DNA from: Zobellia alginiliquefaciens
GTDB lineage: Bacteria; Bacteroidota; Bacteroidia; Flavobacteriales; Flavobacteriaceae
DNA: 64,000 nucleotides
Assembly: GCF_029323795.1 (NCBI RefSeq)
Contig: NZ_CP119758.1
Location: 2,108,001-2,172,000, forward strand
Direction: 5' to 3'
Of the stretch, positions 6,245 to 26,757 are shown in pieces (position 1 is the stretch's first letter; each line of letters begins with the position of its first letter). The notes under the pieces were generated by a model. It was not told the DNA's origin. It worked only from the letters and a program-made list of their open reading frames with translations, and did no database searches. The translations under genes and the position numbers were made by a program.

Positions 6245-7297
6245 TTAAGTTAGATATTGAGAATAGTTTTCGGCATTGACAATATCAATCGGTAATAACT
6301 GTTCCTCTCGCAACGGATTGTCAAAAAGAAAATGTTCTATCAAATAAGTTAGACTCAAATAGACCTGTTTTTTAGGGTCTTGATGAATTAGAAAAGATAT
6401 GTTCTGGTTCGTCAAATGAGTAATATTATCCGCAACAAGGTCGTAACCTATTATTATAGTTTTGTTGGTGTGGTTAGCGATTTGATCGGCTAACAAGTAG
6501 GCCTTAGAAGTGGTAACAAATATACCATCTAACGCGTTTGCATTTGTCTTTACAAAATGTTCTATAGTGTTTTCAAACGGCCGTCCTGATTCTTTTTTAA
6601 GATTATGTACCTGTATCCTAAAGTTTTTGATGTTTTTAGTGCTAAAATAACCCTTGAACCCACATTCTTTCTCTTGCATATGTGAAGCATTTTGAAATAC
6701 TTCGTCAATATGAAGAACGGCAATAGTTGAATTTTTTTGCAAAAGCACATTAAATAGACTTGCGGCGACTCTTCCACTTTGGTTCAGGTCTTGTCCAATA
6801 AATAAATCAACTTTACTCTGTTTAATATAATTATTAAAGGTGGCTACTTTAATCTTTGCTTCCGAACATTTTTTTATCAGGTTTTCGGCTTCATTGAAAA
6901 AAAGGGGAACCATTAATATGGCAACAGGTTTGGACTTAATAGCTTTTAATCCTGCAGTAATGAATGTTTGGGTGTCCTCTGGGTTAAAATGCCACTGCTC
7001 TAGTTTTATGCCAAAGTGTCCAAACTCTTTTTCTACCTGTGTTATGGCCGAGTAGCAGGGTTGCCAAAACGGGTCCGTATCAGCCTTAGGCAAAAGTATG
7101 GATATCCTGTATACCTTGTTGTTCTTTAAACTTTTGGCAATCGGATTTGGCTTATATTCAATTTTAGCCAAAACGGCATTCACCTTATCGGCCGCTTTTG
7201 TAGACACTCTACCACGTTTATGAATAACACGGTCTACGGTTCCTTTAGAGACACCGGCAAGTTGTGCTATGTCTTTTATGGTATAATTTTTTTCCAT
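6245..7297 (-). CDS. LacI-family transcriptional regulator of the N-acetylhexosamine locus
   Basis: 350 residues: LacI helix-turn-helix at 5-25 (TIKDIAQLAGVSKGTVDRVI) and hinge helix (about 50-60, KPNPIAKSLKNN), then a type 1 periplasmic-binding-fold ligand domain (about 65-345). Family members bind palindromic operators with a central CG and release on binding a sugar or sugar phosphate. The gene is divergent from the catabolic run. The palindrome TGTGTTCGAACACA lies in the shared gap and again before susC, so this protein is the natural candidate to bind both. Its own promoter looks complete and nearly leaderless. The effector, probably a GlcNAc/GalNAc derivative, is inferred from the neighbours. 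Confidence 0.9.
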   Translation of the reverse strand: MEKNYTIKDIAQLAGVSKGTVDRVIHKRGRVSTKAADKVNAVLAKIEYKPNPIAKSLKNNKVYRISILLPKADTDPFWQPCYSAITQVEKEFGHFGIKLEQWHFNPEDTQTFITAGLKAIKSKPVAILMVPLFFNEAENLIKKCSEAKIKVATFNNYIKQSKVDLFIGQDLNQSGRVAASLFNVLLQKNSTIAVLHIDEVFQNASHMQEKECGFKGYFSTKNIKNFRIQVHNLKKESGRPFENTIEHFVKTNANALDGIFVTTSKAYLLADQIANHTNKTIIIGYDLVADNITHLTNQNISFLIHQDPKKQVYLSLTYLIEHFLFDNPLREEQLLPIDIVNAENYSQYLT

Positions 7298-7302
7298 TTT
7301 AA

Positions 7303-7335
7303 CAAATATAAGAATCTATTTTAATTTGAAACAAA
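7303..7335 (-). promoter_or_regulatory. Canonical Bacteroidetes promoter of the LacI gene
   Basis: On the minus strand TTTG (7335-7332) is followed after 21 nt by TATATTTG (7310-7303), matching TTTG-N19-21-TAnnTTTG. The ATG begins only 5 nt after the -7 box, so the predicted transcript is leaderless or nearly so. Confidence 0.7.
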
Positions 7336-7336
7336 A

Positions 7337-7349
7337 TGTGCTCGATAAC
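7337..7349. promoter_or_regulatory. 13-mer shared with the susC 5' coding region, candidate auxiliary operator
   Basis: TGTGCTCGATAAC is found here, adjoining the LacI -33 element, and identically at 20268-20280. It keeps the TGTG half and TCGA core of the perfect palindrome 11 bp away but with altered spacing. Confidence 0.35.
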
Positions 7350-7359
7350 GCAATTATTG

Positions 7360-7373
7360 TGTGTTCGAACACA
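7360..7373. promoter_or_regulatory. LacI-type operator 1 (perfect palindrome)
   Basis: TGTGTTCGAACACA is a perfect 14-bp dyad with a central CG, the usual form of LacI-family operators. It sits in the divergent gap between the LacI gene and the nucleotidyltransferase-led operon. The identical site at 19924-19937 precedes susC. Confidence 0.8.
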
Positions 7374-7583
7374 TTTTTATTGATTTTTCTTTTTTATGGA
7401 GTTTATTTTAGATAAATTGTACCAGAATTTAAGATTGTAGTTTAGAAATTTATGTTCTTTATTTAATATAATAACCTGAAAAACAAGATTTAACGGGTTT
7501 TAGTGCGGTCTGGTTCCTTTTAAATTTTTAAGAGTAATAATTCAGCGATAGCGTTGAGAACTCCAAATAATAAAATAATAGTT

Positions 7584-8510
7584 ATGTCAAAATTTAATAA
7601 CAGTTCAGAGGGACCTACTTTGGTTATTCTTGCTGCAGGTATCGGAAGTCGTTATGGCGGTCTAAAACAACTGGATACTTTTTCGCCAGAAGGAGACAGT
7701 ATTATTGATTTTTCAATATATGATGCCATAGAGGCTGGATTCAAAAAAATTGTTTTTGTAATAAGGAAGAATTTGTTGAAAGAGTTTGATGAGACTTTTA
7801 GGCCTAAACTTAAAGGGCGTGCAAAAATGGAGTTTGTTTTTCAGGAATTGGACCGAGTGCCCGATGCTTACATCAATGAAAGTCGTACAAAGCCATGGGG
7901 TACAGGTCACGCATTATTGCTTACCAAAGATGTGGTCAAAGAAAACTTTGCGATTATCAATGCAGACGACTTTTATGGTCGTAAAGCTTTTGAAACCATG
8001 GCCAGTTCATTGAGAGAGACGGATCCAAAATCCTATACTTTTCATATGGTGGCCTACAAACTAAAGAATACAGTTTCGGATTACGGATATGTTTCTAGAG
8101 GAGAATGCAAGGTTTCTACCGATAATTTTCTTCAAGACGTTACGGAACGTACTCATATAGAGAAAAAAGATGGAGGTATTGTAGTTGAAAATGAAGAGGG
8201 GGATTTGCAACCAATAGATGCGGATACCAATGTCTCTATGAACTTTTGGGGCTTCACACCAAAATGCTTTGAGTTTGGGTGGGAATTGTTTGTTGATTTT
8301 CTTGAAAGCAACAAAGAAAATAGTAAGGCCGAATTCTATATCCCCACAGTGGTAAATGAAATGCTGAAGTCTGATAAAGTGAAGGTGAACGTGCTTACTA
8401 CTAATGAAAAATGGTTTGGGGTAACGTACAAAGAGGACAAGGCTATCGTTCAAAATGAGATTATGAAACTCAAGGAAAACGGAGTATACCCCAAAAAACT
8501 ATGGGAATGA
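7584..8510 (+). CDS. Sugar-1-phosphate nucleotidyltransferase (likely UTP:N-acetylhexosamine-1-P)
   Basis: 308 residues from the ATG at 7584 (MSKFNNS); an in-frame TTG at 7554 is less likely because the AT-rich leader just before 7584 fits a flavobacterial ribosome site. A single NTP_transferase domain carries the nucleotide-binding loop LAAGIGSRYGGLKQ near residues 17-30 and a metal-binding INADDFYG. The following genes encode a sugar 1-kinase and a UDP-sugar 4-epimerase. It therefore probably makes UDP-GalNAc/UDP-GlcNAc from the 1-phosphates, as the uridylyltransferase does in the bifidobacterial lacto-N-biose route. Substrate is inferred from context. First gene of the operon behind operator 1. 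Confidence 0.85.
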   Translation: MSKFNNSSEGPTLVILAAGIGSRYGGLKQLDTFSPEGDSIIDFSIYDAIEAGFKKIVFVIRKNLLKEFDETFRPKLKGRAKMEFVFQELDRVPDAYINESRTKPWGTGHALLLTKDVVKENFAIINADDFYGRKAFETMASSLRETDPKSYTFHMVAYKLKNTVSDYGYVSRGECKVSTDNFLQDVTERTHIEKKDGGIVVENEEGDLQPIDADTNVSMNFWGFTPKCFEFGWELFVDFLESNKENSKAEFYIPTVVNEMLKSDKVKVNVLTTNEKWFGVTYKEDKAIVQNEIMKLKENGVYPKKLWE

Positions 8511-9616
8511 GAAATGAAGAAAATATAGTAGCTGTTTTTGGGGCATTTAATCATCAGGCTACCCTAAAGTGCATTCAAGAATTTTCAAGCGGACATATCA
8601 ATGACACGTATTTAATCGAAACAGAACAGGAACGAGATTTTGTTTTACAGCGCATCAACGGAGAGGTGTTCAAAAATATTCCGGCCTTGGTAGAAAACAA
8701 AGTCAAAATCAGTAAGCACCTGTTGAGTAAATTACCGGTGATGGCCGATTGTGAAAAGTATAGAAGGGTGTTGTCTTTTGTTCCTGCTGTGAATGGGAGC
8801 TACCATCATAGGGATGTTAATGGTCAGTATTGGAATCTCTCTTACTACATACCTAAAAGTATTTCGTTCGATACGGTAACAGAGAAAGAAGTTGCGTATG
8901 AAGGCGGTAAACTGTTCGGGAATTTTATCAATCAGACCAGCGATTTTGATGCATCGGAGCTAGTTGAGGTTATACCTGGTTTTCATGATATGAACTGTAG
9001 ATTGGTGCAATTTGAAAACGCTAAGGAAAAAGCTACTCAAGAGCGTTTGAAGAAAGCTAGAACATGCATTGAAAGCATCTACGAATTGAAGGAGGAGATG
9101 TTGATTTTGCAAAACCTAAAGGATAAAGGCAAAATAGCCGTACGTGTTACCCACAATGACACTAAAATTTCCAACGCGCTTTTTAATCAGCAGAATAAAG
9201 GACTTTGTGTTATTGATACGGATACTGTAATGCCCGGTATTGTACACAACGATTTTGGCGATGCCATTCGAACCATTTGCAATACCGCTGAGGAAGATGA
9301 GAAAGATTTAAGCTTGGTAAGTTTTAATGTGCCCTATTATAAGGCGTATTTTAAAGGTTTTCTTGAAGAACTTCGATTCTCCCTTAGTCCACTTGAGAAA
9401 GAACATCTACCGCTTGGGGCTAAAACGATTATTTACATTATGGCACTTCGTTTTCTAACGGATTACCTGAACGGTGACGTGTACTACAAGACAAACTACG
9501 ACGATCATAACCTGAATCGTTCTAAAAATCAGCTGAAACTCATTGATAGCTTTGAAGAGCAATATGACCAAATTCTTGAAATAAGCAACGATATCATAAA
9601 ATTGAAAGAAGCATGA
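8507..9616 (+). CDS. N-acetylhexosamine 1-kinase-like phosphotransferase (NahK-type, APH/choline kinase fold)
   Basis: 369 residues from the ATG at 8507, which overlaps the upstream TGA as ATGA; an ATG at 8501 is also possible. The aminoglycoside-phosphotransferase fold is shown by the catalytic loop RVTHNDTKISNALF (His, Asp, Asn of the HxDxxxxN motif) and the metal-binding IDTDTVMPG. NahK enzymes phosphorylate GlcNAc and GalNAc at C1 with ATP. Position between a nucleotidyltransferase and an epimerase, both with ATGA overlaps, strongly supports this over antibiotic or choline kinase roles. Sugar preference is not visible in the sequence. Confidence 0.83.
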   Translation: MRNEENIVAVFGAFNHQATLKCIQEFSSGHINDTYLIETEQERDFVLQRINGEVFKNIPALVENKVKISKHLLSKLPVMADCEKYRRVLSFVPAVNGSYHHRDVNGQYWNLSYYIPKSISFDTVTEKEVAYEGGKLFGNFINQTSDFDASELVEVIPGFHDMNCRLVQFENAKEKATQERLKKARTCIESIYELKEEMLILQNLKDKGKIAVRVTHNDTKISNALFNQQNKGLCVIDTDTVMPGIVHNDFGDAIRTICNTAEEDEKDLSLVSFNVPYYKAYFKGFLEELRFSLSPLEKEHLPLGAKTIIYIMALRFLTDYLNGDVYYKTNYDDHNLNRSKNQLKLIDSFEEQYDQILEISNDIIKLKEA

Positions 9617-10545
9617 AATATGTAGTAACCGGAGGTGCGGGATTTATAGGAAGCCATATTGTTGAGCATTTAACAAGTGAGGGTCACGAAGTGGTCGTGG
9701 TAGACAATCTACGCACCGGATTTAAAAAAAATCTCGCCCAAATGAACGTTCAGTACAGCAATACTGATATTCGCGATGAACAAAAGATAACCGAACTAAT
9801 TGACGGGGCTTCTGCTGTTTTTCATTTGGCTGCATTAGTGAGTGTGCCCGAGTCAATAGAGAAAATAAACGAGTGCAACTCAATAAATACAATAGGTACC
9901 ATAAACATTTTAGAAGCTGCCAAGAAAACAGGTAATTGTAAGGTGGTGCTTTCATCGTCGGCAGCTAATTATGGAAACAACCCTGTGTCTCCAAAAGTAG
10001 AGACAATGGTGCCGGAGCCTTTGACTCCTTATGCAATTACAAAGTTAGACGGGGAGTATTATCTAGATATGTACCGGAACGAGTTTGAGGTGCCCACTAC
10101 GTCATTGCGGTATTTTAATGTGTTCGGCCCACGTCAAAACCCAAAGTCTGCCTATGCGGCCGTAGTACCTATTTTTATTATGAATGCATTGCAAAATAAG
10201 CCTTTGGTTATTTACGGAGATGGAAAGCAAACCAGAGATTTTGTTTATGTGAAAGATGTCGTGTCCGCAAATCTTTTGGCAGCCGGTCAGGGTGAAGGGG
10301 TGTATAATGTGGCCTTGGGAAAAGGGACTTCGGTCTTAGAGTTGGCACAAAATATTATTGAAATTACCAATTCTAAATCAGCTATTGAGTTTCTAGATCA
10401 AAGACCTGGGGATATCAAGCATTCTGTGGCCAAAACTCAAAAAATTAATCAAATAGGTTTTACACCAAAGTTTACAATTGAACAAGGTCTCAAAGAAACG
10501 ATTGCCTTTTATGAAGGACAGTTGGTACAGCAAACAAACGCGTAA
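9613..10545 (+). CDS. NAD-dependent UDP-N-acetylhexosamine 4-epimerase-like SDR
   Basis: 310 residues, an extended short-chain dehydrogenase. The NAD loop GGAGFIGSHI lies at 7-16, the serine motif is SSSAANYG, the catalytic YxxxK is YAITK, and RYFNVFGPRQNPKSAYAAVVPIF is typical of the WbpP/Gne group acting on UDP-GlcNAc/UDP-GalNAc. The start overlaps the kinase stop (ATGA), indicating translational coupling. Inferred job: convert UDP-GalNAc to UDP-GlcNAc so GalNAc can enter the GlcNAc route. A role in making GalNAc or galactose for surface glycans cannot be excluded, but the catabolic neighbours argue against it. Confidence 0.85.
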   Translation: MKYVVTGGAGFIGSHIVEHLTSEGHEVVVVDNLRTGFKKNLAQMNVQYSNTDIRDEQKITELIDGASAVFHLAALVSVPESIEKINECNSINTIGTINILEAAKKTGNCKVVLSSSAANYGNNPVSPKVETMVPEPLTPYAITKLDGEYYLDMYRNEFEVPTTSLRYFNVFGPRQNPKSAYAAVVPIFIMNALQNKPLVIYGDGKQTRDFVYVKDVVSANLLAAGQGEGVYNVALGKGTSVLELAQNIIEITNSKSAIEFLDQRPGDIKHSVAKTQKINQIGFTPKFTIEQGLKETIAFYEGQLVQQTNA

Positions 10546-10550
10546 TAACT

Positions 10551-11885
10551 ATGAATACAACCTCTTCGCCCACAAAAAAATCAGATTCTAAAAAAATCTC
10601 CATCGCTATTATTGCGGGTATGTTCTTTATTTTGGGTTTTGTTACATGGGTGAACGGAGCGCTTATTCCTTTCATGAAGGCTATTAACGAGTTAAGTGAT
10701 CAACAATCCTATCTTGTGGCATCTGCTTCGTACATATCTTTTGTGGTCATGGCACTTCCGGCGTCATATATACTTAAGAGAATAGGGTACTGTAAAGGTA
10801 TGTCGCTTGGTCTTTTGATCATGGGCTTGGGAGCTCTGGTTTTTATACCTGCAGCAGGAGCACGTACCTATAGCTATTTCTTGATAGGAATCTTCATACA
10901 AGGCGCAGGAATGACATTGCTGCAAACCGCGGTAAATCCGTATATAACCATATTGGGGCCGATTGAAAGTGCAGCTAAACGTATTGCAATAATGGGTATT
11001 TCCAATAAAGTTGCCGGTGCTCTTGGGTCACTGATTTTCGGAGCACTTTTACTATCGGGTATCGAAGCGACAGAGCAAAGATTGAGTGTCGTTAGCGATG
11101 AAGAAAAAAACCAGCTGTTGGATCAAATGGCAGATAGTGTGGTTTTGCCCTATATTATTATGGCAATATGCCTGTTTATAGGTGCATTTTTAATACGGAA
11201 AGCTCCTCTTCCTGAGCTTCAAGTTGAAAGTACGCAAGAAGAAACAACAACAGTAACAAAAAGTTCAATATTTCAATATCCTCATTTATTCTTGGGAGTC
11301 ATTACTCTGTTCGTCTACATAGGAATAGAGGTAATAGCCGGAGATAGTATTATAGCGTATGGCTTGGCTATGGGTTTTCCTGCAAGCCAGGCAAAATATT
11401 TTGCTTCGTTTACCCTGTTGACAATGGTGGCGTGTTATGGTTTGGGAATTTTCTTGGTGCCCAAATATGTTAAGCAACGAGACGCATTGGTTGGCAGTGG
11501 GGTTTTAGGTATTGTCCTGAGCATTTGTATCATCTCTACCCAGGGATTAACTTCTATATTGTTTGTAGCTGCTCTTGGAATGGCAAATGCAATGGTGTGG
11601 CCAGCAATTTGGCCGCTTGCTTTGAGTGATTTGGGCAAGCACACCAAGACCGGGGCGGCCCTGTTGGTCATGGGTATTTCAGGTGGGGCTATCATTCCGC
11701 CTCTCTATGGGAAAATTGTGGATGTGAACAAGGCGGAATTAATAAATCAAGGAGTATCAGCTTCGGAAGCAGTTGGAAGTGCGGCAACATCGGGCTATAT
11801 AATTTTGATTCCCTGTTACTTCATCATTTTGTTTTTTGCTATTTGGGGTTATAAGTTTAAAAGTTGGTCGAGAAAAAAATATTAA
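10551..11885 (+). CDS. Sugar MFS permease (FucP/NagP-like), inner membrane
   Basis: 444 residues with about 12 predicted membrane spans. The N-terminus FFILGFVTWVNGALIPFMKAI and the stretch QTAVNPYITILGP mark the FucP/GluP/NagP branch of the major facilitator superfamily, proton-coupled sugar importers. It starts 5 nt after the epimerase stop and lies directly before nagB, so N-acetylhexosamine uptake from the periplasm is inferred (NagP-type). The cytoplasmic loop after TM6 carries a polar insertion with several T/E residues. No phosphotransferase-system genes are present, which fits import of the unphosphorylated sugar and use of a separate kinase. Confidence 0.85.
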   Translation: MNTTSSPTKKSDSKKISIAIIAGMFFILGFVTWVNGALIPFMKAINELSDQQSYLVASASYISFVVMALPASYILKRIGYCKGMSLGLLIMGLGALVFIPAAGARTYSYFLIGIFIQGAGMTLLQTAVNPYITILGPIESAAKRIAIMGISNKVAGALGSLIFGALLLSGIEATEQRLSVVSDEEKNQLLDQMADSVVLPYIIMAICLFIGAFLIRKAPLPELQVESTQEETTTVTKSSIFQYPHLFLGVITLFVYIGIEVIAGDSIIAYGLAMGFPASQAKYFASFTLLTMVACYGLGIFLVPKYVKQRDALVGSGVLGIVLSICIISTQGLTSILFVAALGMANAMVWPAIWPLALSDLGKHTKTGAALLVMGISGGAIIPPLYGKIVDVNKAELINQGVSASEAVGSAATSGYIILIPCYFIILFFAIWGYKFKSWSRKKY

Positions 11886-11906: not shown

Positions 11907-13835
11907 ATGTTGACAAGTGTAATTGATAACGCAACAGAGCTTGAAAAACGGTTCGAGAAAATTAATACCCATGTATTTAACAATTCGTTGGATGCATCAA
12001 AGGAAGTAGCTGCAGCGGTCGCTTCTTTAATTAGGGAAAAACAGGCACAACAGAAAATGTGTGTTTTAGGTTTGGCAACGGGCTCTTCTCCAAAAAGCCT
12101 GTATGCAGAGCTTGTACGATTGCACAAAGAAGAGAACTTGAGCTTCAAGAATGTGATTTCCTTCAATCTTGACGAGTACTACCCTATGAAGGCCGAATCT
12201 ATACATAGTTATGTTCGTTTTATGAATGAACAATTGTTCGACCATGTAGATATTAATGCAGAAAATGTCCACATTCCCGATGGAACTCTTTCAAAACAAG
12301 AGATTGCGGAATATTGTAATTCCTACGAATCAAAAATAGAAGAATTGGGAGGCATTGACCTTCAGATTTTAGGTATAGGAGGTAATGGACACATCGGTTT
12401 TAATGAGTCCGGTTCATTACAAAACTCTAAAACACGTTTAGTTGCTTTAGACCATAGTACACGTATTGCTGCGAGTAAGGATTTTAAAGGCCTGAAAAAT
12501 ACGCCACGTACCGCTATCACTCTTGGGGTCAGCAAAATTATGGAGGCCAAGCGTGTCATTCTATTGGCATGGGGCGAAGCTAAATCGGCAATCGTTAGAA
12601 AGGCAGTAGAAGAAGAATTTACCAATCAGGTACCGGCTTCCTTCTTACAAGAACACAACGCTGTTGATTTTGTGGTGGATAAAGAAGCTGCATCTCAACT
12701 TACCCGCTTAAAAAAGCCATGGTTGGTAGAGGAAGTAGAATGGACCAACAAGTTAATCAGCAAAGCTGTTTTGGGGTTGGCGTTAGAATTGAAAAAACCC
12801 ATTCTAATGCTTACCGATGCGGATTATATAGAGAACGGAATGAGCGACTTATTGGCAGAAAAAGGTCCGGCTTATGACATCAATATTCGTATTTTCAACA
12901 AACTTCAAAATACAATTACGGGTTGGCCGGGAGGTAAACCCAATGCAGATGACAGCAAACGACCTGAGCGTTCTGAGCCAGCTAAAAAGCGCGTCTTGAT
13001 ATTTAGCCCACATCCGGATGACGATATTATTAGTATGGGAGGTACTTTCAAGCGATTGCGAGAACAGGGCCATGAGGTACACGTCGCATATCAGACGTCC
13101 GGTAATATTGCCGTTGCTGACGATGAAGCTATTCGGTTTGCAAAATTTATAACTGATTTCAACGAGGCTTTTAATATATCTAGTGATGGTGCAAAGGAAA
13201 TTTATGACAAGAGCAGGCAGTTTATAAAAAACAAGGAAGTTGGTGGGATAGACATTCCTGAACTAAGAAAAATTAAAGGTATTATAAGAAGAGGAGAGGC
13301 TCGGGCTACGAGTCATTTTGTAGGCTTGCCAGATGCTCAGATTCACTTTATGAACCTTCCGTTCTATGAGACCGGGGCTATTGAAAAGAATCCATTAGGT
13401 GAAGATGATATTGCTTTGACCATAGATTTAATAGAAAAAATAAAACCACATCAAATTTATGCCGCTGGAGACCTTGCTGATCCACATGGCACCCATAAGG
13501 TGTGTCTTGATGCTGTTTTTGCGGCGCTAAAATCAATAAAGCATAAAGACTTTATGCAAGATTGTTGGTTGTGGTTGTATAGAGGTGCTTGGCAAGAATG
13601 GGGTATTGATGAAATTGATATGGCAGTGCCTATGAGCCCTGATCAGGTCATCGAAAAGCGATTGGGTATTTTTAAACATCAATCACAAAAAGATGGGGTT
13701 GTTTTTCAAGGATCTGATAGCCGTGAATTCTGGCAAAGGGCAGAAGACCGAAATAGAGAAACCGCCACTCTGTACGATCAGCTGGGGTTGGCACATTATG
13801 CGGCAATGGAGGCATTTGTACGTTGGGAATATTAA
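11907..13835 (+). CDS. nagB: Glucosamine-6-phosphate deaminase fused to a PIG-L/LmbE deacetylase domain
   Basis: 642 residues, more than twice the length of a plain NagB. Residues about 1-280 are the deaminase/isomerase (GLATGSSPKSLY, FNLDEYYPM, GIGGNGHIGFNE). Residues about 355-640 are a PIG-L domain with the zinc motif SPHPDDDI (His369, Asp371, Asp372) and a late PHGTHK (His527, His530). PIG-L proteins remove acetyl groups from GlcNAc moieties. The two halves together could turn GlcNAc-6-P into fructose-6-P without a separate NagA, which is absent from this locus. This long architecture is known in Bacteroidetes, but I know of no assigned role for the second half. The ATG at 11907 lies 21 nt after the permease stop. 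Confidence 0.9.
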   Translation: MLTSVIDNATELEKRFEKINTHVFNNSLDASKEVAAAVASLIREKQAQQKMCVLGLATGSSPKSLYAELVRLHKEENLSFKNVISFNLDEYYPMKAESIHSYVRFMNEQLFDHVDINAENVHIPDGTLSKQEIAEYCNSYESKIEELGGIDLQILGIGGNGHIGFNESGSLQNSKTRLVALDHSTRIAASKDFKGLKNTPRTAITLGVSKIMEAKRVILLAWGEAKSAIVRKAVEEEFTNQVPASFLQEHNAVDFVVDKEAASQLTRLKKPWLVEEVEWTNKLISKAVLGLALELKKPILMLTDADYIENGMSDLLAEKGPAYDINIRIFNKLQNTITGWPGGKPNADDSKRPERSEPAKKRVLIFSPHPDDDIISMGGTFKRLREQGHEVHVAYQTSGNIAVADDEAIRFAKFITDFNEAFNISSDGAKEIYDKSRQFIKNKEVGGIDIPELRKIKGIIRRGEARATSHFVGLPDAQIHFMNLPFYETGAIEKNPLGEDDIALTIDLIEKIKPHQIYAAGDLADPHGTHKVCLDAVFAALKSIKHKDFMQDCWLWLYRGAWQEWGIDEIDMAVPMSPDQVIEKRLGIFKHQSQKDGVVFQGSDSREFWQRAEDRNRETATLYDQLGLAHYAAMEAFVRWEY

Positions 13836-15245: not shown

Positions 15246-16319
15246 TTGAGAATAGCGCGGGATACATTCAGACGTTTGGCAATAATGGGTATATTTCTAC
15301 TGATTGTTGTACAATTTTTGGCGTATACTGTACCGGAGAATTTTCAAGAAAAAAGGGGTGAGCCTGTTTTTACGGCCTATATAAAAGATTCTATACCTGT
15401 AACCGTAGATTTGATTTATGATACAGATTCTTTGCCAGATAAATATTACGCTTATATTGAAAGTCCGGTTTGTGAAGATGGTGTTTGTTATGATTTGAAG
15501 TTTCACCTCTATTGGGATTTGCTCGGTAATTTTATAGAGTACAAGGAGGTAGCTTCAGACCCTTTTACAAAGTTTGAACATGATTTGTTTACAGCTGAGG
15601 ATCATATAAAGTTGCAGAAAATATTGGCCGATAAAACATCGCCGCTCGCTAATTATGCTCCCGTAGATTTAATAGACAAAAATAAATCGGTCTACTCGTC
15701 TGTAATAGATGGTATGGCAGGTGCAACCTTTCCTGCGTTAAAGGACGAAGTTGTTCAAGGGGCGGTTTACAGTACACATACATTATGGAATATTGTAAAC
15801 GGTACAATTGCGAGTAAAATTGAAAATTATACTGCTACCGTACAGAACGAAGAACTGTTTGTAAAGATGATTCGTTCAAATAGGCATGCGCTACAAATGT
15901 ATGGTATGCGACACATAACCCCAGATGTTGAAGAATACCCGGATCTGTTGGTTTCCCTTGTTAAAAATGGTCAAGAATATGTGCCCTTTTTTGCCATAGC
16001 AAAATTGACGCCCCATATGTGGGCAGATGCCCAAATTCAAAGCCAGTTGATCGATCTGCTCGACTCACAAAATTTTGAGATGCAAAACGAAATTTTAAAC
16101 GGGTTAAGCTCAACAAAACTTGTTTCCGGCAATGTTACGAAACTCTTAGATAAACTGTCGGCTTTGAAAGAAAGTCAATATAAGAAGTTGAGCTCAATCA
16201 TAAGTGGCAGTACATCAGCTTTAACAAAGGAAGATATAACATATCTCAAGAAAATTTCTGAAAGCGATATGGAGTTTGCCCCTTATGCAAGAAAACTAGT
16301 TGAGGGTGCTAAAAATTAA
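15246..16319 (+). CDS. Membrane-anchored periplasmic protein with a flavinylation-like DGMAGAT motif; function unknown
   Basis: 357 residues from a TTG at 15246; the Arg-rich start (RIARDTFRRLA) before the membrane helix (about 13-29) makes TTG more convincing than the ATG at 15285. The region after the anchor holds ESPVCEDGVCYDLKFHLYWD. At residues 155-161 there is DGMAGAT, close to the D-x-x-S/T-G-A-T signal where FMN is covalently attached to Thr in NqrC/RnfG-type proteins. The S-to-A change weakens the match. The C-terminal half looks like an alpha-helical repeat. It is next to an exported FAD oxidoreductase, so an electron-transfer partnership is conceivable. I do not recognise the family firmly. 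Confidence 0.6.
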   Translation: MRIARDTFRRLAIMGIFLLIVVQFLAYTVPENFQEKRGEPVFTAYIKDSIPVTVDLIYDTDSLPDKYYAYIESPVCEDGVCYDLKFHLYWDLLGNFIEYKEVASDPFTKFEHDLFTAEDHIKLQKILADKTSPLANYAPVDLIDKNKSVYSSVIDGMAGATFPALKDEVVQGAVYSTHTLWNIVNGTIASKIENYTATVQNEELFVKMIRSNRHALQMYGMRHITPDVEEYPDLLVSLVKNGQEYVPFFAIAKLTPHMWADAQIQSQLIDLLDSQNFEMQNEILNGLSSTKLVSGNVTKLLDKLSALKESQYKKLSSIISGSTSALTKEDITYLKKISESDMEFAPYARKLVEGAKN

Positions 16320-19765: not shown

Positions 19766-20097
19766 TCCTAAAAAAGAAGAAAGTACCCAATGTTTAGGGA
19801 TGAACACGTACTTGAAGACCCCCTATTTGCTGTAGTAAAATTTGGAAATTGGTAAGAGTAGATAGGTAATAGTATCAGTATTGAGATATATTTATGATTT
19901 TATGATAAATTTTAAATTATTAGTGTGTTCGAACACATTATTCAATAATTTTTGTATTTTAGTAAAAGATTAAGAAAGTATGGGCCATTTTTCAGAGCCT
20001 ATTATAACCTCGGAAAGGACAACTTCTAAAATTGTGCTTTCCATTTGTTACTCGATTATTCGTCAAGCTCACTAATTCAAATTATAATCACAATTTT
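19766..20097 (+). other. Intergenic region with operator 2 and the susC leader
   Basis: No gene is seen. It holds the TGTGTTCGAACACA palindrome (19924-19937), a weak -7-like TAATTTTTG (19946-19954) and a TATTTTAG also found after operator 1 (7404-7411; here 19955-19962), then about 140 nt of leader up to the ATG at 20098. No clear terminator for the upstream operon was found. Confidence 0.6.
19924..19937. promoter_or_regulatory. LacI-type operator 2 upstream of susC
   Basis: A perfect copy of the 14-bp palindrome at 7360-7373 (TGTGTTCGAACACA), placed about 160 nt before the susC ATG. Its presence at both promoters ties the SusC/SusD/GH20 operon to the catabolic operon under one regulator. 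Confidence 0.8.
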
Positions 20098-23000
20098 ATG
20101 AATCAACAATCAAAGTTTAGTTCGCTATGCCCTGGTGGTATAGGTAAAGTAGAGGGGGGTAAATGGCTCAGTTTCATTTTAATCTTCTTAGTTTTTAATT
20201 ATCAGTCTTTTGCCTTTTCTGAAAAACTTGAGCTTTCACCGAGCCAAGATTTCTCTATCTCTGGAAGTGTGCTCGATAACACTGGGCTGCCTTTGCCAGG
20301 AGCCTCTGTTGTAGAAAAAGGAACCGACAATGGAACCCAGACCGATTTTGACGGAAATTTTGTCCTTGACCTTTCTTCCGGTGATGCCATATTAGTAGTG
20401 ACATACATGGGTTTCTCAACAAAAGAAATAGCGGTAGACAATCAGGAACAAGTTAAGATTGTCCTTGAAGAAAATGTTTCAGCTTTAGATGAAATTGTTG
20501 TTGTAGGCTACGGAACCCAATCCAAAAAAGATATTACCGGATCAATTAGTGTAGTTGATGGTGATGATGTAACCTCAAGAAATGTAACCAATGTATCTAA
20601 CGCGTTGCAAGGTGCGGTAGCTGGGGTTAGCGTAACTCGTAGTAGTGGTGCTCCTGGAGCAGGGAACACAATCAACATACGTGGTATAACCACCTTACAA
20701 GGCGATAGTTCTCCTTTAATATTGGTAGATGATGTTCCCGTAGATGATATTAACGACGTAAATCCTGATCAGATTGAAAGTATTTCGGTTCTTAAAGATG
20801 GTGCCTCGTCTTCCCTCTACGGATCCAGAGCAGCGGCAGGAGTTATTATAATTACCACTAAACGAGGAAAAGAAGGTGTCTATAGGGTGTCTTATAGTGG
20901 AGAAGTTATAGTTAATACCCCTACCGAGACCAGAGAAAATGTAAGTGTCTCTCGTTATCTTCAAATGGATAATGAGAAAGCATGGAACGATAATGGAAAT
21001 ACAGGAGTAGAAGACCCAACTTGGTCAAATGATTATATTTCTAATTACGATGCAAACCACTTGGCAAACCCTGATCAATATCCAGATACGGATTGGCAAG
21101 ATCTTATTTTAAAAAATGCATCGTTCGGTTACCGTCATAATATAAGTATTAGCGGAGGTTCTGAACGTATTAAATCTAACCTTACCATGGGTTACGAATA
21201 CCAAGATGCCATATACGACAATAGTGATTGGGATAGGTACACTGCACGTATAAATAATGATATTAAAATTTCTGATAAAATAGGAGCCAATATTGATTTC
21301 GCCTTAAAATTGACAACGAACAACAACCCTGTTGTAGATCCTACTGACTTGGCCTTAAATTCAGGTCCTAATTATCCTGCGGTATGGGAAGATGGACGTC
21401 TTGCCGGTGGAAAATCTGGGGAAAACGCTTATGCGGTATTGCAAAGCGGAGGATTTCAGACCAGTGAGTCCTATTTGTTTTATGGTAAAGTAGGGGCTTA
21501 TTATAAACCTGTTGAAGGCTTAAAGCTATCAGTAAATGTAGCTCCTAATTTTAACTTCAATAAATACAAGTTTTTCAATAAAGCAATTCCATATTGGGAT
21601 TATGATGACCCTAATCAAACAGGCGTTCCTAATTATATTTCGGGCCATAATGATAGTCAGAACTACCTCTTGGAAAATAGAACTAATGACAAAACATTAA
21701 CCACACAGGCGCTCGTAAATTATGACAAGGAGTTTGGAAACCATTCCGTAAGCGGGGTTCTTGGTTATGAAGAATTTTCTGCGGATTATGAAACCCTAAG
21801 TGTGCGAGGAAATGAATTCGTAAGCGCTGAATACCCTTACTTAAGTCAAGCACCTATAGATGGAGTGTTCGATAATGGATCAACGATATCTGAGAACGCA
21901 TACACCTCTTATTTTGGTAGATTGGCTTATGACTATAAAGACACCTACTATTTACAGGCCAATGTACGTAGAGATGGGTCGTCTCGTTTTGGTAAAGATC
22001 ATAGATGGGGATCGTTCCCATCTATTTCAGCAGGCTGGGTCTTGTCCAACGAAAAGTTTATGAATTCGTTGAGCGAAACCATTTCATTCTTAAAATTTAG
22101 AGCTTCCTACGGTTCTTTAGGAAACGATCGCTTAGGTAACTACTTATACCTTTCCGTACTTCAATTTAGCAATGCATTAATTGCAAATGGTAATGATGTG
22201 GAAGCCGTTCGTTCTGCCGCCCAAAGATACTTGGCGGTAGAGGATGTTACTTGGGAAACTACAATTTCAAAAAACGTAGGTATTGACCTTTCCATGTTCA
22301 ACAGTTCTTTGTCCTTAACGGCGGACTATTATATAAAGGATACGGAAGATATGTTACTTAGTTTAAGTATACCTTCTTTAATAGGTTATGAAGATCCTAC
22401 CGTAAATGTCGGGAGTATGAAGACCGAAGGATGGGAAATGGCCCTATCGTATAAAAATAGTATTGGTGATTTCAATTATTCCGTCTCTGCCAACATATTT
22501 GATTCAAAGTCAACCGTAGGCGATATTAACGATAAACGACTTATTTCCGGTAATGTCATTTCGGAAGAAGGTGAAGAGTTTAGGTCTTGGTATGGATACG
22601 TATCGGACGGTATATACCAGTCTCAAGAAGAAATAGACAATTCTGCTGTTACCAGTGCTTCAGTAATGCCAGGTGATGTGCGCTATAAAGATATTAGTGG
22701 CCCAGATGGTGTTCCAGATGGTGTTATCAATGAGCTTGATAAGCAACATTTAGGAGGGTCATTACCTAGATATCAATATGGAGGAACCATAAACCTTAAG
22801 TACAAGAATTTTGATTTTGGGGTTACCGTTCAAGGTGTAGGCAAGCAAAAGTTCTATCTAGATCAAAGTTACATTCGTCCTTTCTTGTATAACTGGCAAG
22901 CTGTCAATAGCATCTATGACAACAACTACTACAGTAATTACAATACACCTGCGCAAAATATGAGTGCTGAGTATCCACGTTTATCCGAAAGTTCATCTAG

Positions 23001-23247
23001 CAATAATTACCGATTCTCTGACTTTTGGCTTAAAGATGGATCTTACACAAGAATAAAGAATATCACCTTGGGTTATACCTTGCCTTCTGACTTTATGCAG
23101 AGTTCACCGTTTACAAGTTTAAGGGTGTATGCCTCCGGTAACGACCTATTCTCTTTTGACAGTTTGCCGGATGGAATTGATCCTGAGCAACAGAGTGGAT
23201 ACTTGATTACTAAATCATTCATTTTAGGTCTAAAAGCTAACTTCTAA
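20098..23247 (+). CDS. SusC-family TonB-dependent glycan transporter
   Basis: 1049 residues from the ATG at 20098 (MNQQSKFSS); an upstream in-frame TTG at 20032 is not needed. A signal segment (about 22-40, LSFILIFLVFNYQSFAF) is followed by a carboxypeptidase-like domain (ISGSVLDNTGLPLPGASV), the TonB-box region DEIVVVGYGTQSKKDITGS, a plug with INIRGITTLQGDSSPLILVDDVPVDD, and a long barrel ending SFILGLKANF. SusC proteins import oligosaccharides through a SusD-capped channel. SusD follows after 11 nt. The likely ligands are GlcNAc/GalNAc-containing oligosaccharides, inferred from the neighbouring GH20 and GH109. The early coding region contains a 13-mer shared with the LacI promoter. Confidence 0.95.
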   Translation: MNQQSKFSSLCPGGIGKVEGGKWLSFILIFLVFNYQSFAFSEKLELSPSQDFSISGSVLDNTGLPLPGASVVEKGTDNGTQTDFDGNFVLDLSSGDAILVVTYMGFSTKEIAVDNQEQVKIVLEENVSALDEIVVVGYGTQSKKDITGSISVVDGDDVTSRNVTNVSNALQGAVAGVSVTRSSGAPGAGNTINIRGITTLQGDSSPLILVDDVPVDDINDVNPDQIESISVLKDGASSSLYGSRAAAGVIIITTKRGKEGVYRVSYSGEVIVNTPTETRENVSVSRYLQMDNEKAWNDNGNTGVEDPTWSNDYISNYDANHLANPDQYPDTDWQDLILKNASFGYRHNISISGGSERIKSNLTMGYEYQDAIYDNSDWDRYTARINNDIKISDKIGANIDFALKLTTNNNPVVDPTDLALNSGPNYPAVWEDGRLAGGKSGENAYAVLQSGGFQTSESYLFYGKVGAYYKPVEGLKLSVNVAPNFNFNKYKFFNKAIPYWDYDDPNQTGVPNYISGHNDSQNYLLENRTNDKTLTTQALVNYDKEFGNHSVSGVLGYEEFSADYETLSVRGNEFVSAEYPYLSQAPIDGVFDNGSTISENAYTSYFGRLAYDYKDTYYLQANVRRDGSSRFGKDHRWGSFPSISAGWVLSNEKFMNSLSETISFLKFRASYGSLGNDRLGNYLYLSVLQFSNALIANGNDVEAVRSAAQRYLAVEDVTWETTISKNVGIDLSMFNSSLSLTADYYIKDTEDMLLSLSIPSLIGYEDPTVNVGSMKTEGWEMALSYKNSIGDFNYSVSANIFDSKSTVGDINDKRLISGNVISEEGEEFRSWYGYVSDGIYQSQEEIDNSAVTSASVMPGDVRYKDISGPDGVPDGVINELDKQHLGGSLPRYQYGGTINLKYKNFDFGVTVQGVGKQKFYLDQSYIRPFLYNWQAVNSIYDNNYYSNYNTPAQNMSAEYPRLSESSSSNNYRFSDFWLKDGSYTRIKNITLGYTLPSDFMQSSPFTSLRVYASGNDLFSFDSLPDGIDPEQQSGYLITKSFILGLKANF
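20268..20280. promoter_or_regulatory. Intragenic copy of the TGTGCTCGATAAC 13-mer, candidate auxiliary operator
   Basis: Identical to 7337-7349. Here the flanks extend it to GTGT-gc-TCGA-ta-ACAC, an imperfect dyad (6 of 8 pairs), about 340 bp downstream of operator 2 and inside susC. A looping partner, like lac O2 within lacZ, is a hypothesis; coding coincidence is possible. Confidence 0.3.
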
Positions 23248-23258
23248 AAAATATAAAG

Positions 23259-25019
23259 ATGAAAGAATATATTCATAAAATAGGCTATACATTATTTCTT
23301 GTTGTAGGTTTTCTCTTCAACTCTTGTACTGAACTCGATTTGGTTCAAGAAGATGCGGCGAGCTCTGCAACTTGGTATCAAACCAAAGACCAGTTTAGAC
23401 AATCTTTAAATGAAGGTTACCGAGAAGTGTTCTGGCCCTTGGATGAAGTTTATGAGGGTATGGACGATGATTGGCAACGTCGAGACGTTCTTAATGCCAT
23501 AAAAGCTGGTAATATTTCTTCTGAATACCCCAAGTCAAATACAGATTGGTCAAATCTTTATAAGGCTATCGCCCGGGTTTTAGTTGTTGTAGGTCAGTTA
23601 GAGAACCAAACCGTTTTGAGCGCAGAAGAAGCCGAACAATATAGGGGTGAGGCCGATTTTTTGAGGGCTTCGTACTATTCTTATCTTATTACTCATTTTG
23701 GTGATGTGCCTTTCTATGAAGATGAGTTAAGTATAGATGAATCTTTTGAAATTGAACGTACTTCAAAAGAGACCATTAAACAGAAATTATATACCTATTA
23801 TGACAATGCAGCAGCATCCCTTCCGTTGTCCTATAACGGGTTAGAATATGCAACAAAAGGGGCAGCTTATGCAATGAAAGCTCGTTTGGCATTATATATG
23901 GGGGATTATGAAATAGCTGCGGAAGCATCTAAAAACGTCATAGACTTAGGCTTGTATGAGCTGTACCCAAACTACGCTGAGCTTTTTGAACCGACCACGA
24001 AGAATTCGGTTGAAACTATTTTTCATATTGCTAGAAATACAGATCTGAACGTTATCAGAAACGATAATGTCCGAGACTTTTTACCTAGAAATCATGGTGG
24101 ATATGCGGGACGAAACCCAACTTGGGAGCTTTTGGCATCTTATGAATGTGTAGACGGTATGCCAGTAGACGAATCGCCTCTTTTTGACCCTCAGAACCCA
24201 TTTAAGAATAGGGATCCGCGTTTGTTGGCTACCATTGCCCCGTTTGGTTCTTTGGAAGATGGAGATGGTCTAGAGCCCAAGGACGGCTCCAATTTTATGG
24301 ATATTGAGTACAATCCGCATCCGGAAAGTAAAGAGGTGTTTGATTTTGAAAACAATGTTGAAATTAAAAACCAAGACACTAGGTCTATTGGGGCATTTGC
24401 GGCATTCAATGGTCTTTTATTTAAAAAGGGTGTTACTAAAGATTGGAAAGATTACCGAACAGATCCAGATTTAATCGTAATAAGATATGCGGATGTGCTT
24501 CTTATGTATGCCGAAGCTAAAATTGAGTTGAACGAAATAGATCAATCTGTTTTAGATGCTATGAATGCCGTAAGAGACAGAGCTTATGCGAATTCTAATT
24601 TTGAAAATCCTGCAATATCAACTACGGACCAAACCGAATTGCGGTACAAGGTCCGTAATGAGCGAAGGGCAGAACTTGCGTTTGAGGGTCGTAGATATAT
24701 GGATTTGATTAGATGGAGGTTGGCAGAGAAAGCGCTTACGGGTTTCACTTATGGTCTTTTAAATGTTACTGCAGATGCAGAAGTTAGTGTGGCGCCAACA
24801 GGCCCATTAATGGATGACTTGGTGAATGAAGGACTATGGTTTTGGGGTCAAACACCGGAAATAGGAGAAGACGGGCTTCCCGATTTCTCTAATTTATTGA
24901 ATGCCGGGTATTGCCGTACGTTAAACGTTACAACATTTCCGGAGCGTCAATATCTTTTTCCTATTCCAGAAGAAGATAGGTTGTTGAATTCTAATCTTAC
25001 CCAAAATCCTGGGTATTAA
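23259..25019 (+). CDS. SusD/RagB-family surface glycan-binding lipoprotein
   Basis: 586 residues with a lipoprotein signal (lipobox FLFNSC, Cys about 22, then TELD) and the SusD helical TPR-like core (DFLRASYYSYLITHFGDVPFYED, AAYAMKARLALYMGDYEIAAE). The conserved C-terminal part has IRYADVLLMYAEAKIELNE, VRNERRAELAFEGRRYMDLIRWRLAEKAL and YLFPIPEEDRLLNSNLTQNPGY. It forms the lid on SusC at the outer membrane and captures oligosaccharides at the cell surface. It follows susC by 11 nt and precedes the GH20 gene by 37 nt, the usual arrangement in a polysaccharide utilisation locus. Confidence 0.95.
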   Translation: MKEYIHKIGYTLFLVVGFLFNSCTELDLVQEDAASSATWYQTKDQFRQSLNEGYREVFWPLDEVYEGMDDDWQRRDVLNAIKAGNISSEYPKSNTDWSNLYKAIARVLVVVGQLENQTVLSAEEAEQYRGEADFLRASYYSYLITHFGDVPFYEDELSIDESFEIERTSKETIKQKLYTYYDNAAASLPLSYNGLEYATKGAAYAMKARLALYMGDYEIAAEASKNVIDLGLYELYPNYAELFEPTTKNSVETIFHIARNTDLNVIRNDNVRDFLPRNHGGYAGRNPTWELLASYECVDGMPVDESPLFDPQNPFKNRDPRLLATIAPFGSLEDGDGLEPKDGSNFMDIEYNPHPESKEVFDFENNVEIKNQDTRSIGAFAAFNGLLFKKGVTKDWKDYRTDPDLIVIRYADVLLMYAEAKIELNEIDQSVLDAMNAVRDRAYANSNFENPAISTTDQTELRYKVRNERRAELAFEGRRYMDLIRWRLAEKALTGFTYGLLNVTADAEVSVAPTGPLMDDLVNEGLWFWGQTPEIGEDGLPDFSNLLNAGYCRTLNVTTFPERQYLFPIPEEDRLLNSNLTQNPGY

Positions 25020-25056
25020 TTTCTACCAAAACCAAATTTTCCAAATAAATGAAAAT

Positions 25057-26757
25057 ATGAAAAAAATTCTCCTGTTGAGCATTGTACTCTTAAGCTTTAG
25101 TTGTGCAGAAAATTATGATAGATATAAAGATGTTACTGCTAGCGAAAAGGCTTACGGTATTATTCCCAAACCCAATAATTTAACCAAGAATTCAGGTGTT
25201 TTTGCTCTGGACGAAAACGTTGTTATCAATAGTTCTGCGTCGCTTGAAAATGAGGCTAATTATTTAGCGGGAATATTAGGTGTTGTAGAAGGGCTTTCTG
25301 CCGATGATATATTGAATAATTCCGAAGGTCAACATCTTATTGAGCTAAAAATCTCCGATGAGGTAAGTGAAGAAGAAGGTTATGTACTTGAAGTAGGGTA
25401 CGACAAAATAACTATCAAGGGAAAAACCTCGACCGGAATATTCTATGGTATTGAAACTTTAAGGCAATTAATTACCAAGCAAACGGTAGAAGGGGAAGAA
25501 ATGTTTGTGGTACCTGCTACAAAAATCGAAGACGCACCTCGGTTTGCGTATAGAGGTATGATGCTGGATACGGGCCGTTATTTTTATGACGTTGCTTTCG
25601 TAAAGCAATTCATTGATTTAATAGCTTTACATAAAATGAATATATTTCATTGGCATCTAACGGAAGATCAAGGTTGGCGAATCGAGATTAAGAAATACCC
25701 TAAACTTACAGAGGTAGGCGCATGGCGAAACGGTACGGAAATAGGCCAAACTCCCGGAACGGAAAGTGATAACAAAAAGCACGGCGGATTCTATACTCAA
25801 GAACAAATAAAAGAGGTAATCGAATATGCCAAAAAGAAGCACATTACGATTATACCCGAGATAGATATGCCCGGTCATAATGGTGCGGCCATAGCCTCAT
25901 ATCCCTTTTTGAGTTGTTTCCCGGAAGAGAAAACCCCAATGAACGAGAACATAATTTCCGAAGCCACAAAGAAGCTTATGTCAAGTGGCACAAAAAAGGT
26001 TGTTCAAGAATCTTGGGGCGTTAAAACGGATGTACTATGCGCTGGAAAGGAGAGCACCTATGCATTCTATGAAGATGTTTTAAGTGAAGTAATAGACCTT
26101 TTTACTTCGGAATATATTCATATCGGCGGGGACGAGTGCAGAAAAGATAACTGGAAGCGTTGCCCTAATTGTCAACAGAAAATTGCCGAAAATGATTTAG
26201 AAGGTGAAAACGGTCTTCAAAGTTATTTTATTAATCATATGGAAAAGTTTGTCAACAGCAAAGGCAAGCGAATCATAGGTTGGGACGAGATTCTGGAAGG
26301 TGGTTTGGCACCTAATGCTACCGTTATGTCATGGCGCGGACTTACAGGTGGAATAGAGGCGGCAAAGCAAGGCCACCCCGTTATTATTTCACCTAGGGAG
26401 CCTTGCTATTTTGACTATTATCAAGATAAAGACTTTGCTAGCGAACCATTAGCTATTGGAGGCAGAGGACCCAACACGGTGAAAGATGTTTATACTTTTG
26501 ATCCTTTACCAAAAGAACTTTCAAGCGATGAGCAAAAGCATATTTGGGGAGTTCAGGCCAATTTATGGACAGAATATATAGGTACACCTGACTATGCAGA
26601 ATATATGTTGCTACCGCGAATGACTGCAATTTCTGAAGTTGCTTGGTCTTCACCAAATGCTGATAAAGACTACCATGAATTTCTTCAAAGGCTTGATGGT
26701 TTCAAAGATATATATGATGAAAAAGGATTGAATTATGCCAAACATGTGTTTGAATAG
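25057..26757 (+). CDS. GH20 beta-N-acetylhexosaminidase lipoprotein
   Basis: 566 residues. Lipobox SFSC (Cys about 16) predicts membrane anchoring. The N-terminal GH20b domain (about 35-165) is followed by the catalytic TIM barrel (about 168-545) with RGMMLDTGRYFYDV, HWHLTEDQGWRIEIKKYP, IPEIDMPGH and the catalytic pair in HIGGDEC (Asp359-Glu360). The C-terminal acceptor-site tryptophans lie in WGVQANLWTEYI. Family enzymes cleave terminal beta-GlcNAc or beta-GalNAc by substrate-assisted catalysis through the N-acetyl group. It is the last gene of the SusC/SusD operon and supplies the monosaccharides that the upstream kinase/epimerase/NagB operon would consume. A bidirectional terminator follows. 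Confidence 0.95.
   Translation: MKKILLLSIVLLSFSCAENYDRYKDVTASEKAYGIIPKPNNLTKNSGVFALDENVVINSSASLENEANYLAGILGVVEGLSADDILNNSEGQHLIELKISDEVSEEEGYVLEVGYDKITIKGKTSTGIFYGIETLRQLITKQTVEGEEMFVVPATKIEDAPRFAYRGMMLDTGRYFYDVAFVKQFIDLIALHKMNIFHWHLTEDQGWRIEIKKYPKLTEVGAWRNGTEIGQTPGTESDNKKHGGFYTQEQIKEVIEYAKKKHITIIPEIDMPGHNGAAIASYPFLSCFPEEKTPMNENIISEATKKLMSSGTKKVVQESWGVKTDVLCAGKESTYAFYEDVLSEVIDLFTSEYIHIGGDECRKDNWKRCPNCQQKIAENDLEGENGLQSYFINHMEKFVNSKGKRIIGWDEILEGGLAPNATVMSWRGLTGGIEAAKQGHPVIISPREPCYFDYYQDKDFASEPLAIGGRGPNTVKDVYTFDPLPKELSSDEQKHIWGVQANLWTEYIGTPDYAEYMLLPRMTAISEVAWSSPNADKDYHEFLQRLDGFKDIYDEKGLNYAKHVFE

Follow-up and report, generated by a model that had tools for sequence, protein, structure and literature searches.

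A LacI-linked locus of Zobellia alginiliquefaciens with a predicted role in growth on GalNAc- and GlcNAc-bearing glycans

Gene content and organization of the locus

We examined a 64,000-nucleotide stretch of the Zobellia alginiliquefaciens genome (contig NZ_CP119758.1, positions 2,108,001 to 2,172,000), hereafter the window, in which positions 6245-26757 carry a locus predicted to serve the use of the N-acetylhexosamines (HexNAc) N-acetylgalactosamine (GalNAc) and N-acetylglucosamine (GlcNAc). The genome is a single contig of 5.07 Mb. Gene identities were taken from Pfam and NCBIfam domain and family-model searches, PDB matches, and sequence motifs. It was noted that the domain searches recovered every gene named in a preliminary description of this DNA, in the order given there.

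The locus is fronted by a divergent gene for a LacI-family regulator (6245-7297, minus strand; LacI helix-turn-helix and Peripla_BP_4 domain models), and all other genes described here lie on the plus strand. Nine genes between 7554 and 19765, spaced at -10 to +50 bases, form one probable operon. These begin with a PF00483 nucleotidyltransferase (NTase; 7554-8510), a predicted GalY-like UTP:HexNAc-1-phosphate uridylyltransferase, followed by a NahK-like N-acetylhexosamine 1-kinase of the APH family (8501-9616; PF01636), a short-chain dehydrogenase/reductase (SDR) resembling UDP-HexNAc 4-epimerases (9613-10545), and a sugar transporter of the major facilitator superfamily (MFS; 10551-11885). 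The transporter was placed in the NagP/GluP/FucP group, scoring 396 bits against the NagP model (cut-off 625) and passing the cut-off of the gluP subfamily model. Next come a NagB-PIG-L fusion (11907-13835) with both domains, a predicted GlcNAc-6-phosphate deacetylase and glucosamine-6-phosphate (GlcN-6-P) deaminase, and a GlmM-type phosphohexosamine mutase (13849-15234; TASHNP motif), which scored 508 bits against TIGR03990 (cut-off 439). The operon closes with genes for a protein with a flavin mononucleotide (FMN) motif (15246-16319), an oxidoreductase of the flavin adenine dinucleotide (FAD) type (16353-18299), and a GH109 glycoside hydrolase (18350-19765). The first two are called FMNx and FADox below, labels coined in this analysis.

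The genes for glycan release and uptake lie at the end of the first operon and in a second one. GH109 (PF21252) possesses both the C-terminal domain and the NAD-binding fold of its family, its nearest structures are 6t2b (E = 1.9e-101) and then the alpha-N-acetylgalactosaminidase 2ixa (E = 9.8e-67), and it is predicted to release alpha-GalNAc. Both FADox and GH109 have a twin-arginine start as read from the sequence. After a gap of 266 bases, the second operon comprises susC (20032-23247; the start is likely the ATG near 20098) and susD (23259-25019), both assigned by family search, and a GH20 beta-N-acetylhexosaminidase gene (25057-26757) with a GGDE motif, for which the nearest structures are beta-hexosaminidases including 6q63. 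The locus thus has the make-up of a Sus-type polysaccharide utilization locus, its SusC/SusD pair being accompanied by glycoside hydrolases and by an associated site for the regulator.

A shared operator and conserved gene order

Newly identified here is the same 16-base LacI-type operator, GTGTGTTCGAACACAT, in front of both operons, at 7359-7374 and, in identical form, at 19923-19938. These are the only perfect copies in the genome. Allowing one mismatch added only a site within susC at 20267 and one at C1:1771276, and the reversed pattern, used as a control on the whole genome at the same stringency, gave 0 matches. A looser pattern with up to two mismatches gave seven strand matches at four places in the window, compared to 0.96 expected. 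Between lacI and the NTase gene there is also an additional, weaker site resembling the operator (7336-7351, plus strand; one mismatch to RTGTGYTCGANMACAY), and the site within susC spans 20267-20282 (one mismatch to RTGTGYTCGARMACAY).

We then compared the locus with two sets of relatives. The first covers regions for 17 of the 23 kinase matches outside the window, and the second (L042-L121) comprises the best 80 of 567 confirmed loci and shares genomes with the first (e.g., L042 and L025). In a first count on the 80 loci, the site was found in the annotated intergenic region before the NTase gene in 35 of the 46 loci with LacI, while only 1 of the 34 loci lacking LacI had any site and the reversed pattern gave two matches in all 80. 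Since some lacI frames had been called too long, a fixed region of 300 bases upstream of the NTase gene was counted instead, with up to two mismatches and with 7 of the 80 loci excluded for want of a usable upstream region. All 42 NTase genes with an adjacent lacI gene possessed the site, compared to 3 of the 31 without one and 0.02 loci per shuffle. Eleven of the 80 loci have an operator-like site before susC as well. That uptake and catabolism belong to a single regulon, with LacI predicted to bind these sites, finds its best support in the identical operators before both operons, kept in relatives.

Two further observations concern this operator. In Zobellia amurskyensis (L042, 7754-8803 and 8862; L206), the LacI protein is only 66% identical to that of the window, compared to 84-99% for the other locus genes, and the sites before both operons are altered by two mismatches each, a possible case of regulator-operator co-evolution. 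It was also noted that an operator-like site precedes the gene for a protein of 617-635 amino acids beside a CBM9-like gene in 12 Flavobacterium-type loci (L051-L054, L058, L060, L068, L069, L072, L073, L077, and L078); in L052 this protein carries DUF1565 and a Por secretion tail.

A comparison of gene order across the Flavobacteriaceae, proposed in the preliminary description, recovered the core order in other members of the family. Among the best 80 of 567 loci, the succession LacI-NTase-NahK-SDR-MFS-NagB-PIG-L-GlmM is found again in Zobellia, Leeuwenhoekiella, and several Flavobacterium, so the grouping of these genes is not due to chance. The NTase gene adjoins the kinase gene in 17/17 loci of the first set, a count that includes a distant paralogous pair of the same genome, and in 72 of 77 loci of the second, three having been dropped because the kinase lay near an edge or none was on the plus strand. 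The nearest named relative among the matches listed, from which records very close to the window may be missing, is Z. amurskyensis KMM 3526 (kinase 94% identical), which retains the whole block, SusC, SusD, and GH20 included. In L029, from another genus, SusC, SusD, and GH20 (80, 78, and 68% identity) stand beside the same core. The FMNx-FADox-GH109 segment was encountered within kinase loci of the second set only in L042 (Zobellia) and in L043 and L045 (Leeuwenhoekiella); in L044 and L046, also Leeuwenhoekiella, susC takes its place.

A tRNA-Ala(ggc) gene lies beside the locus both in the window (26821-26895) and in Leeuwenhoekiella polynyae (L046, 5237-5311), with Usp, GNAT, and MATE genes near both, and this common neighborhood suggests a shared insertion site.

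Predicted catabolic route and its alternatives

We consider it probable that this LacI-controlled locus serves growth on glycans bearing GalNAc and GlcNAc, with the reactions, their directions, and their substrates read from homology and gene context. SusC and SusD would bring in oligosaccharides, from which the exported GH20 (beta) and GH109 (alpha) would free HexNAc for transport into the cytosol by the MFS protein. NahK would convert HexNAc to HexNAc-1-phosphate, the NTase would use UTP to convert GalNAc-1-phosphate to UDP-GalNAc, and the SDR would epimerize this to UDP-GlcNAc, from which the NTase in reverse, or another pyrophosphorylase, would yield GlcNAc-1-phosphate. GlcNAc would join the pathway directly at this last compound. 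The GlmM paralogue would then shift the phosphate from C1 to C6, the PIG-L domain would remove acetate, and the NagB domain would convert GlcN-6-P to fructose-6-phosphate, with an effector sugar freeing the operators of both operons of LacI. The preliminary description had proposed such a Sus-coupled salvage of GalNAc and GlcNAc through 1-phosphates and UDP-sugars, and homology, synteny, and the common operator all agree with it.

The kinase is a NahK homologue. It aligns over its full length with the Bifidobacterium NahK structures (E = 3.4e-63), possesses the HND and IDxD catalytic motifs, and is predicted to phosphorylate GalNAc and GlcNAc at O1, although a paralogue with 36% identity is encoded elsewhere in the genome. 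The top PDB match of the NTase is 3pnn, annotated as "conserved domain protein" (E = 4.2e-94), followed by UTP-glucose-1-phosphate uridylyltransferases of the GalU-like kind. An anomeric kinase and a uridylyltransferase also make up the AmgK-MurU pair of peptidoglycan recycling, and the two genes of the window would fit such a pair as an APH kinase with a PF00483 enzyme. We rejected this reading as very improbable because the kinase matches NahK structures and the recycling genes are located elsewhere, in a separate AnmK/MurQ/AmpG-like/GH3 cluster; moreover, the NTase matches 3pnn and the Sus genes share the operator.

The paralogue belongs to a second NTase-NahK pair (L032, G000:C1:1322505-1323488) that is 39% and 35-36% identical to the pair of the window and has SusC/SusD-like genes nearby. 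Its kinase subfamily is present in all nine Zobellia genomes, and the neighbors were read in L032, L036, and L041.

The best PDB matches of the SDR are 6dnt, 4zrm, 6wj9/6wjb, and WbgU, of which 6dnt and 6wj9 are UDP-GlcNAc 4-epimerases. The SDR agrees with WbgU in a YAAV(V/I)P stretch as well as in the Ser within GD(I/V)(K/R)HS, and GDIKHS is kept in 23 of 24 SDR orthologues with more than 60% identity, the pattern not being found in the remaining one. UDP-HexNAc specificity has been tied to a Cys or Ser in the C5 pocket and an Ala in the C2 pocket (PMC6668579). With residue numbering transferred by inference, the SDR agrees with the group-3 (WbpP/WbgU) pocket rule through Ser271 of GDIKHS, YAAVVP (181-186), and PYAITK (YxxxK), and it looks like a group-3 rather than a group-2 (bGalE) enzyme.

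Epimerization at the UDP level rather than through an Aga pathway, as the preliminary description had it, accords with the outcome of searches for three enzymes. Neither NagA (cut-off 225.65 bits), AgaS (529.2 bits), nor GalT had a match over its cut-off in any of the nine Zobellia genomes, and in the window genome the NagA-like matches were only partial, at about 20-23 bits. The lack of a galT match would suit a salvage of galactose by the Leloir route, in which the kinase, the GalY-like enzyme, and a GalE-like SDR would act on galactose in place of GalT. GalY is a predicted replacement for GalT in gut genomes (PMC5583593), and a galactokinase gene is found close to a related NTase-kinase pair in L039. 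However, the L039 pair belongs to a more distant set (42% and 34% identity to the pair of the window), and the window pair is accompanied by NagB-PIG-L, GlmM, GH20, and GH109, which makes galactose salvage quite improbable.

We assessed the co-occurrence of the SDR and GlmM in the 57 of the 80 loci with at least 9 kb downstream, where a gap of more than 700 bases was taken to end the gene run. NagB-PIG-L was in the run of 40 of these; the other 17 were without it, yet two of them (L051 and L053) have the SDR. The 40 loci comprised 13 with both SDR and GlmM, 3 with the SDR only, 2 with GlmM only, and 22 with neither (Fisher exact test; p = 3.9e-6). L073, scored as SDR-only, does have GlmM, lying past the gap rule. 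Such co-occurrence is expected if epimerization at the UDP level gives a 1-phosphate that needs to be moved to C6.

Against this stands a route for GlcNAc only, of the chitobiose or chitin type, in which NahK and the mutase would replace a GlcNAc 6-kinase while the NTase and SDR supplied UDP-GlcNAc and UDP-GalNAc for cell-surface polymers. GH20 and the NagP-like transporter suit GlcNAc, and the SDR is lacking in 24 of the 40 relatives with NagB-PIG-L. However, GH109 lies in the same operon, and release of alpha-GalNAc has been described for BT4243 (PMC11992087); the SDR pocket suits HexNAc, and an anabolic pair sharing its operator with susC would be odd. We therefore regard the GlcNAc-only route as unlikely.

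A cytosolic Gfo/Idh gene was found in 9 of the 40 loci, all among the 22 without SDR and GlmM. In three loci lacking both, a Gfo/Idh/MocA gene lies between MFS and NagB-PIG-L (L026, 12860-13831, confirmed by Pfam; L029, 7144-8184; L030, 12237-13235), and its product might replace UDP-level epimerization where the SDR is lacking. None of the 16 SDR loci carries such a gene, but L049, on a short contig outside the count, has both, and for this reason a substitution is not claimed.

The later steps are represented by the mutase and the fusion protein. The GlmM-type mutase is a second genome copy, the other (65% identical) lying at C1:4495600. The HPDDD, PHGTH, and GHIGFNE signatures occur in NagB-PIG-L and in 44/44 homologues of more than 600 amino acids from the 80 loci. 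A second NagB-PIG-L of the genome (62% identity to the window copy) has HPDDD and PHGTH, passes the nagB cut-off, and clusters with AnmK, GH3, an AmpG-like MFS transporter (193 bits, under the 350 of its model), and MurQ (297/302 for the equivalog model, with the cut-off of the subfamily model passed). The product of MurQ is GlcNAc-6-phosphate, and the AnmK/MurQ recycling route supplies this compound. It is therefore the likely entry substrate of the second NagB-PIG-L, and the same product would be expected from the mutase acting on GlcNAc-1-phosphate. It was also noted that a putative acetyl-CoA synthetase gene follows NagB-PIG-L in four loci (L061, L063, L079, and L103) and is found some genes further along in L091 (5 of 80 loci together), which would fit the release of acetate.

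Several observations weigh against the proposed GalNAc and GlcNAc route. The window-type kinase is present in only 2 of the 9 Zobellia genomes. Of the 40 NagB-PIG-L relatives, 24 are without the SDR and 22 have neither it nor GlmM, so that in these relatives the pathway must borrow the missing enzymes or differ. The Fisher test ignores shared ancestry. The SDR stayed below every epimerase equivalog cut-off (TviC, 203/760 bits; galE, 193/262), and 4zrm, its second PDB match, is annotated as a UDP-glucose 4-epimerase and carries the pocket Ser too, so this residue is not decisive for UDP-HexNAc. The model that the mutase passes is one for phosphoglucosamine rather than phospho-GlcNAc mutases, and the exact GHIGFNE string is not in the second, recycling NagB-PIG-L. 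NagA-like matches of 198-225 bits were found in three of the nine Zobellia genomes (G001, G005, and G008), the window genome not among them, and AgaS matches of 39-41 bits, probably other SIS proteins, in six of the nine, the window genome included. Finally, the reverse pyrophosphorylase step needs pyrophosphate, and a parallel route through a GlcNAc 6-kinase may exist.

The FMNx-FADox pair and comparison with known systems

The FMNx-FADox pair had been left unexplained in the preliminary description. FMNx has an N-terminal hydrophobic stretch, the motif DGMAGAT (155-161), C76 and C81, and a C-terminal helical repeat, and FADox possesses a Tat-like start, PF12831 (FAD_oxidored), and a partial C-terminal DUF7402 match. 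No Pfam or NCBIfam family, FMN_bind included, matched FMNx, two further members likewise lacked FMN_bind, and a PDB search with FMNx gave nothing below E 0.5; the PDB matches of FADox covered only short FAD/NAD-binding parts. AlphaFold2 modeled FMNx from a four-row alignment with a mean predicted local distance difference test score (pLDDT) of 59; nearly all residues 26-200, the motif domain, fell below 50 and the C-terminal helical part alone was confident, and FADox reached a pLDDT of 38. Compared to the five FMN_bind proteins found among 24 loci as plus-strand frames carrying the motif, the FMNx profile aligned over 34 columns around the motif at a weak probability of 16.7%.

FMNx was found in at least 8 of 395 genomes of the phylum, and a profile search gave matches in at least 12 of 395 genomes of the class; both counts include the window genome, and up to five candidates per genome were scored. 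In three of the 12 genomes the matches were weak (21-25 bits), covered only the helical C-terminal part, and were not counted as FMNx. Twelve other loci were read; L139 and L142 probably represent the same locus in two Zobellia, and a single genome supplied both L138 and L144. A FADox homologue is grouped with FMNx in 11 of the 12, directly adjoining in 10 and separated by apbE in L146, and none was found in L170. PF12831 was confirmed by Pfam in three of the partners, and the others were recognized by their BLAST similarity to the protein of the window or to relatives of it. In 2 of the 12 loci (L141 and L146), apbE belongs to the gene run as well, and the window genome has three apbE genes, none of them in the window.

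The flavinylation motif is given as D-x-x-[S/T]-G-A-[S/T] (PMC12052999), and this strict form was present in 8 of the 13 FMNx members, i.e., that of the window and the 12 others. Among the deviating members, Ala takes the place of the first S/T in those of the window and L141, GST is found in L145 and SEPT in L169, and His replaces Asp in L171; two Leeuwenhoekiella proteins outside the 13 have Val at the first S/T. Elsewhere the neighbors include sulfatases, GH2, GH43, and a DUF7133-cytochrome c protein, which places the pair more widely in glycan loci. A gene for a CstA-type carbon starvation transporter adjoins FMNx in L139 (Pfam), with look-alikes in L138 and L142.

The partnership of FMNx and FADox is well supported by their adjacency, and as a more tentative proposal the two could make up a periplasmic redox pair, not named before, in the glycan loci of Bacteroidota. 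FADox would oxidize or reduce a sugar outside the cytosol, with electrons passing between it and FMNx, which would be a carrier with covalently bound flavin beyond the reach of FMN_bind models; here the pair would act on HexNAc glycans with GH109. The ApbE-flavinylated FMN-bind and fumarate/urocanate reductase systems (PMC8238504, PMC11334425, PMC12052999) are alike in joining an exported FMN-motif protein to an exported FAD enzyme; in contrast, FMNx lacks a Pfam FMN_bind match and its partner is of the PF12831 type, often in glycan loci. No description of an FMNx-PF12831 pair was found among the open-licence papers listed. If real, the pair would connect flavin-based electron transfer outside the cytosol with the use of glycans.

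The preliminary description had likened the kinase, uridylyltransferase, and epimerase trio to the bifidobacterial lacto-N-biose pathway. Since the NTase resembles 3pnn and GalU, this analogy is one of chemistry. The uridylyltransferase of the bifidobacterial lacto-N-biose/galacto-N-biose pathway is of the GalT type, whereas that of Zobellia is of the PF00483/3pnn type, and the epimerase looks group-3 rather than group-2 (bGalE). Also as the preliminary description had stated, no GH112 phosphorylase is encoded among the locus genes, the rest of the genome not having been searched. The steps that the locus is predicted to share with the bifidobacterial pathway (PMC6668579) are a 1-kinase reaction and C4 epimerization at the UDP level. 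One GalNAc pathway, running via tagatose 6-phosphate, had been described according to PMC5583593. The same study describes GalY (Amuc_0031), an NTP_transferase predicted to act on hexose-1-phosphate where GalT is lacking, which resembles the NTase by description; GalY was predicted for galactose, whereas in Zobellia the enzyme is tied to a HexNAc kinase.

The closest characterized system is the polysaccharide utilization locus BT4240-50 of Bacteroides thetaiotaomicron. Its NahK homologue BT4240 is a proven GalNAc 1-kinase that prefers this sugar and is required for growth on it, and the later steps are termed "downstream metabolism" in the parts of the report available (PMC11992087), in whose main text the terms uridylyltransferase, nucleotidyl, epimerase, and UDP have 0 occurrences. 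Both loci possess a NahK-type kinase, GH109, an inner-membrane MFS transporter, and SusC/SusD. The Zobellia locus differs in lacking the M60-like peptidase and GH2 and in possessing GH20, FMNx-FADox, and the LacI operator, and its kinase operon adds the NTase before the kinase and the SDR, NagB-PIG-L, and GlmM after it as candidates for the steps after GalNAc-1-phosphate. No description of this gene order was found among the open-licence papers listed, and the locus appears new in that it would join bifidobacterial-like chemistry to a B. thetaiotaomicron-type setting, with another kind of uridylyltransferase and organized as a regulon. The Zobellia block could explain what follows a BT4240-type kinase step: for GalNAc catabolism past the 1-kinase in Bacteroidota without AgaS and NagA, it offers a candidate for each of the subsequent steps, all within a single operon and under a single regulator, whose operator is a handle for finding the same regulon in other genomes.

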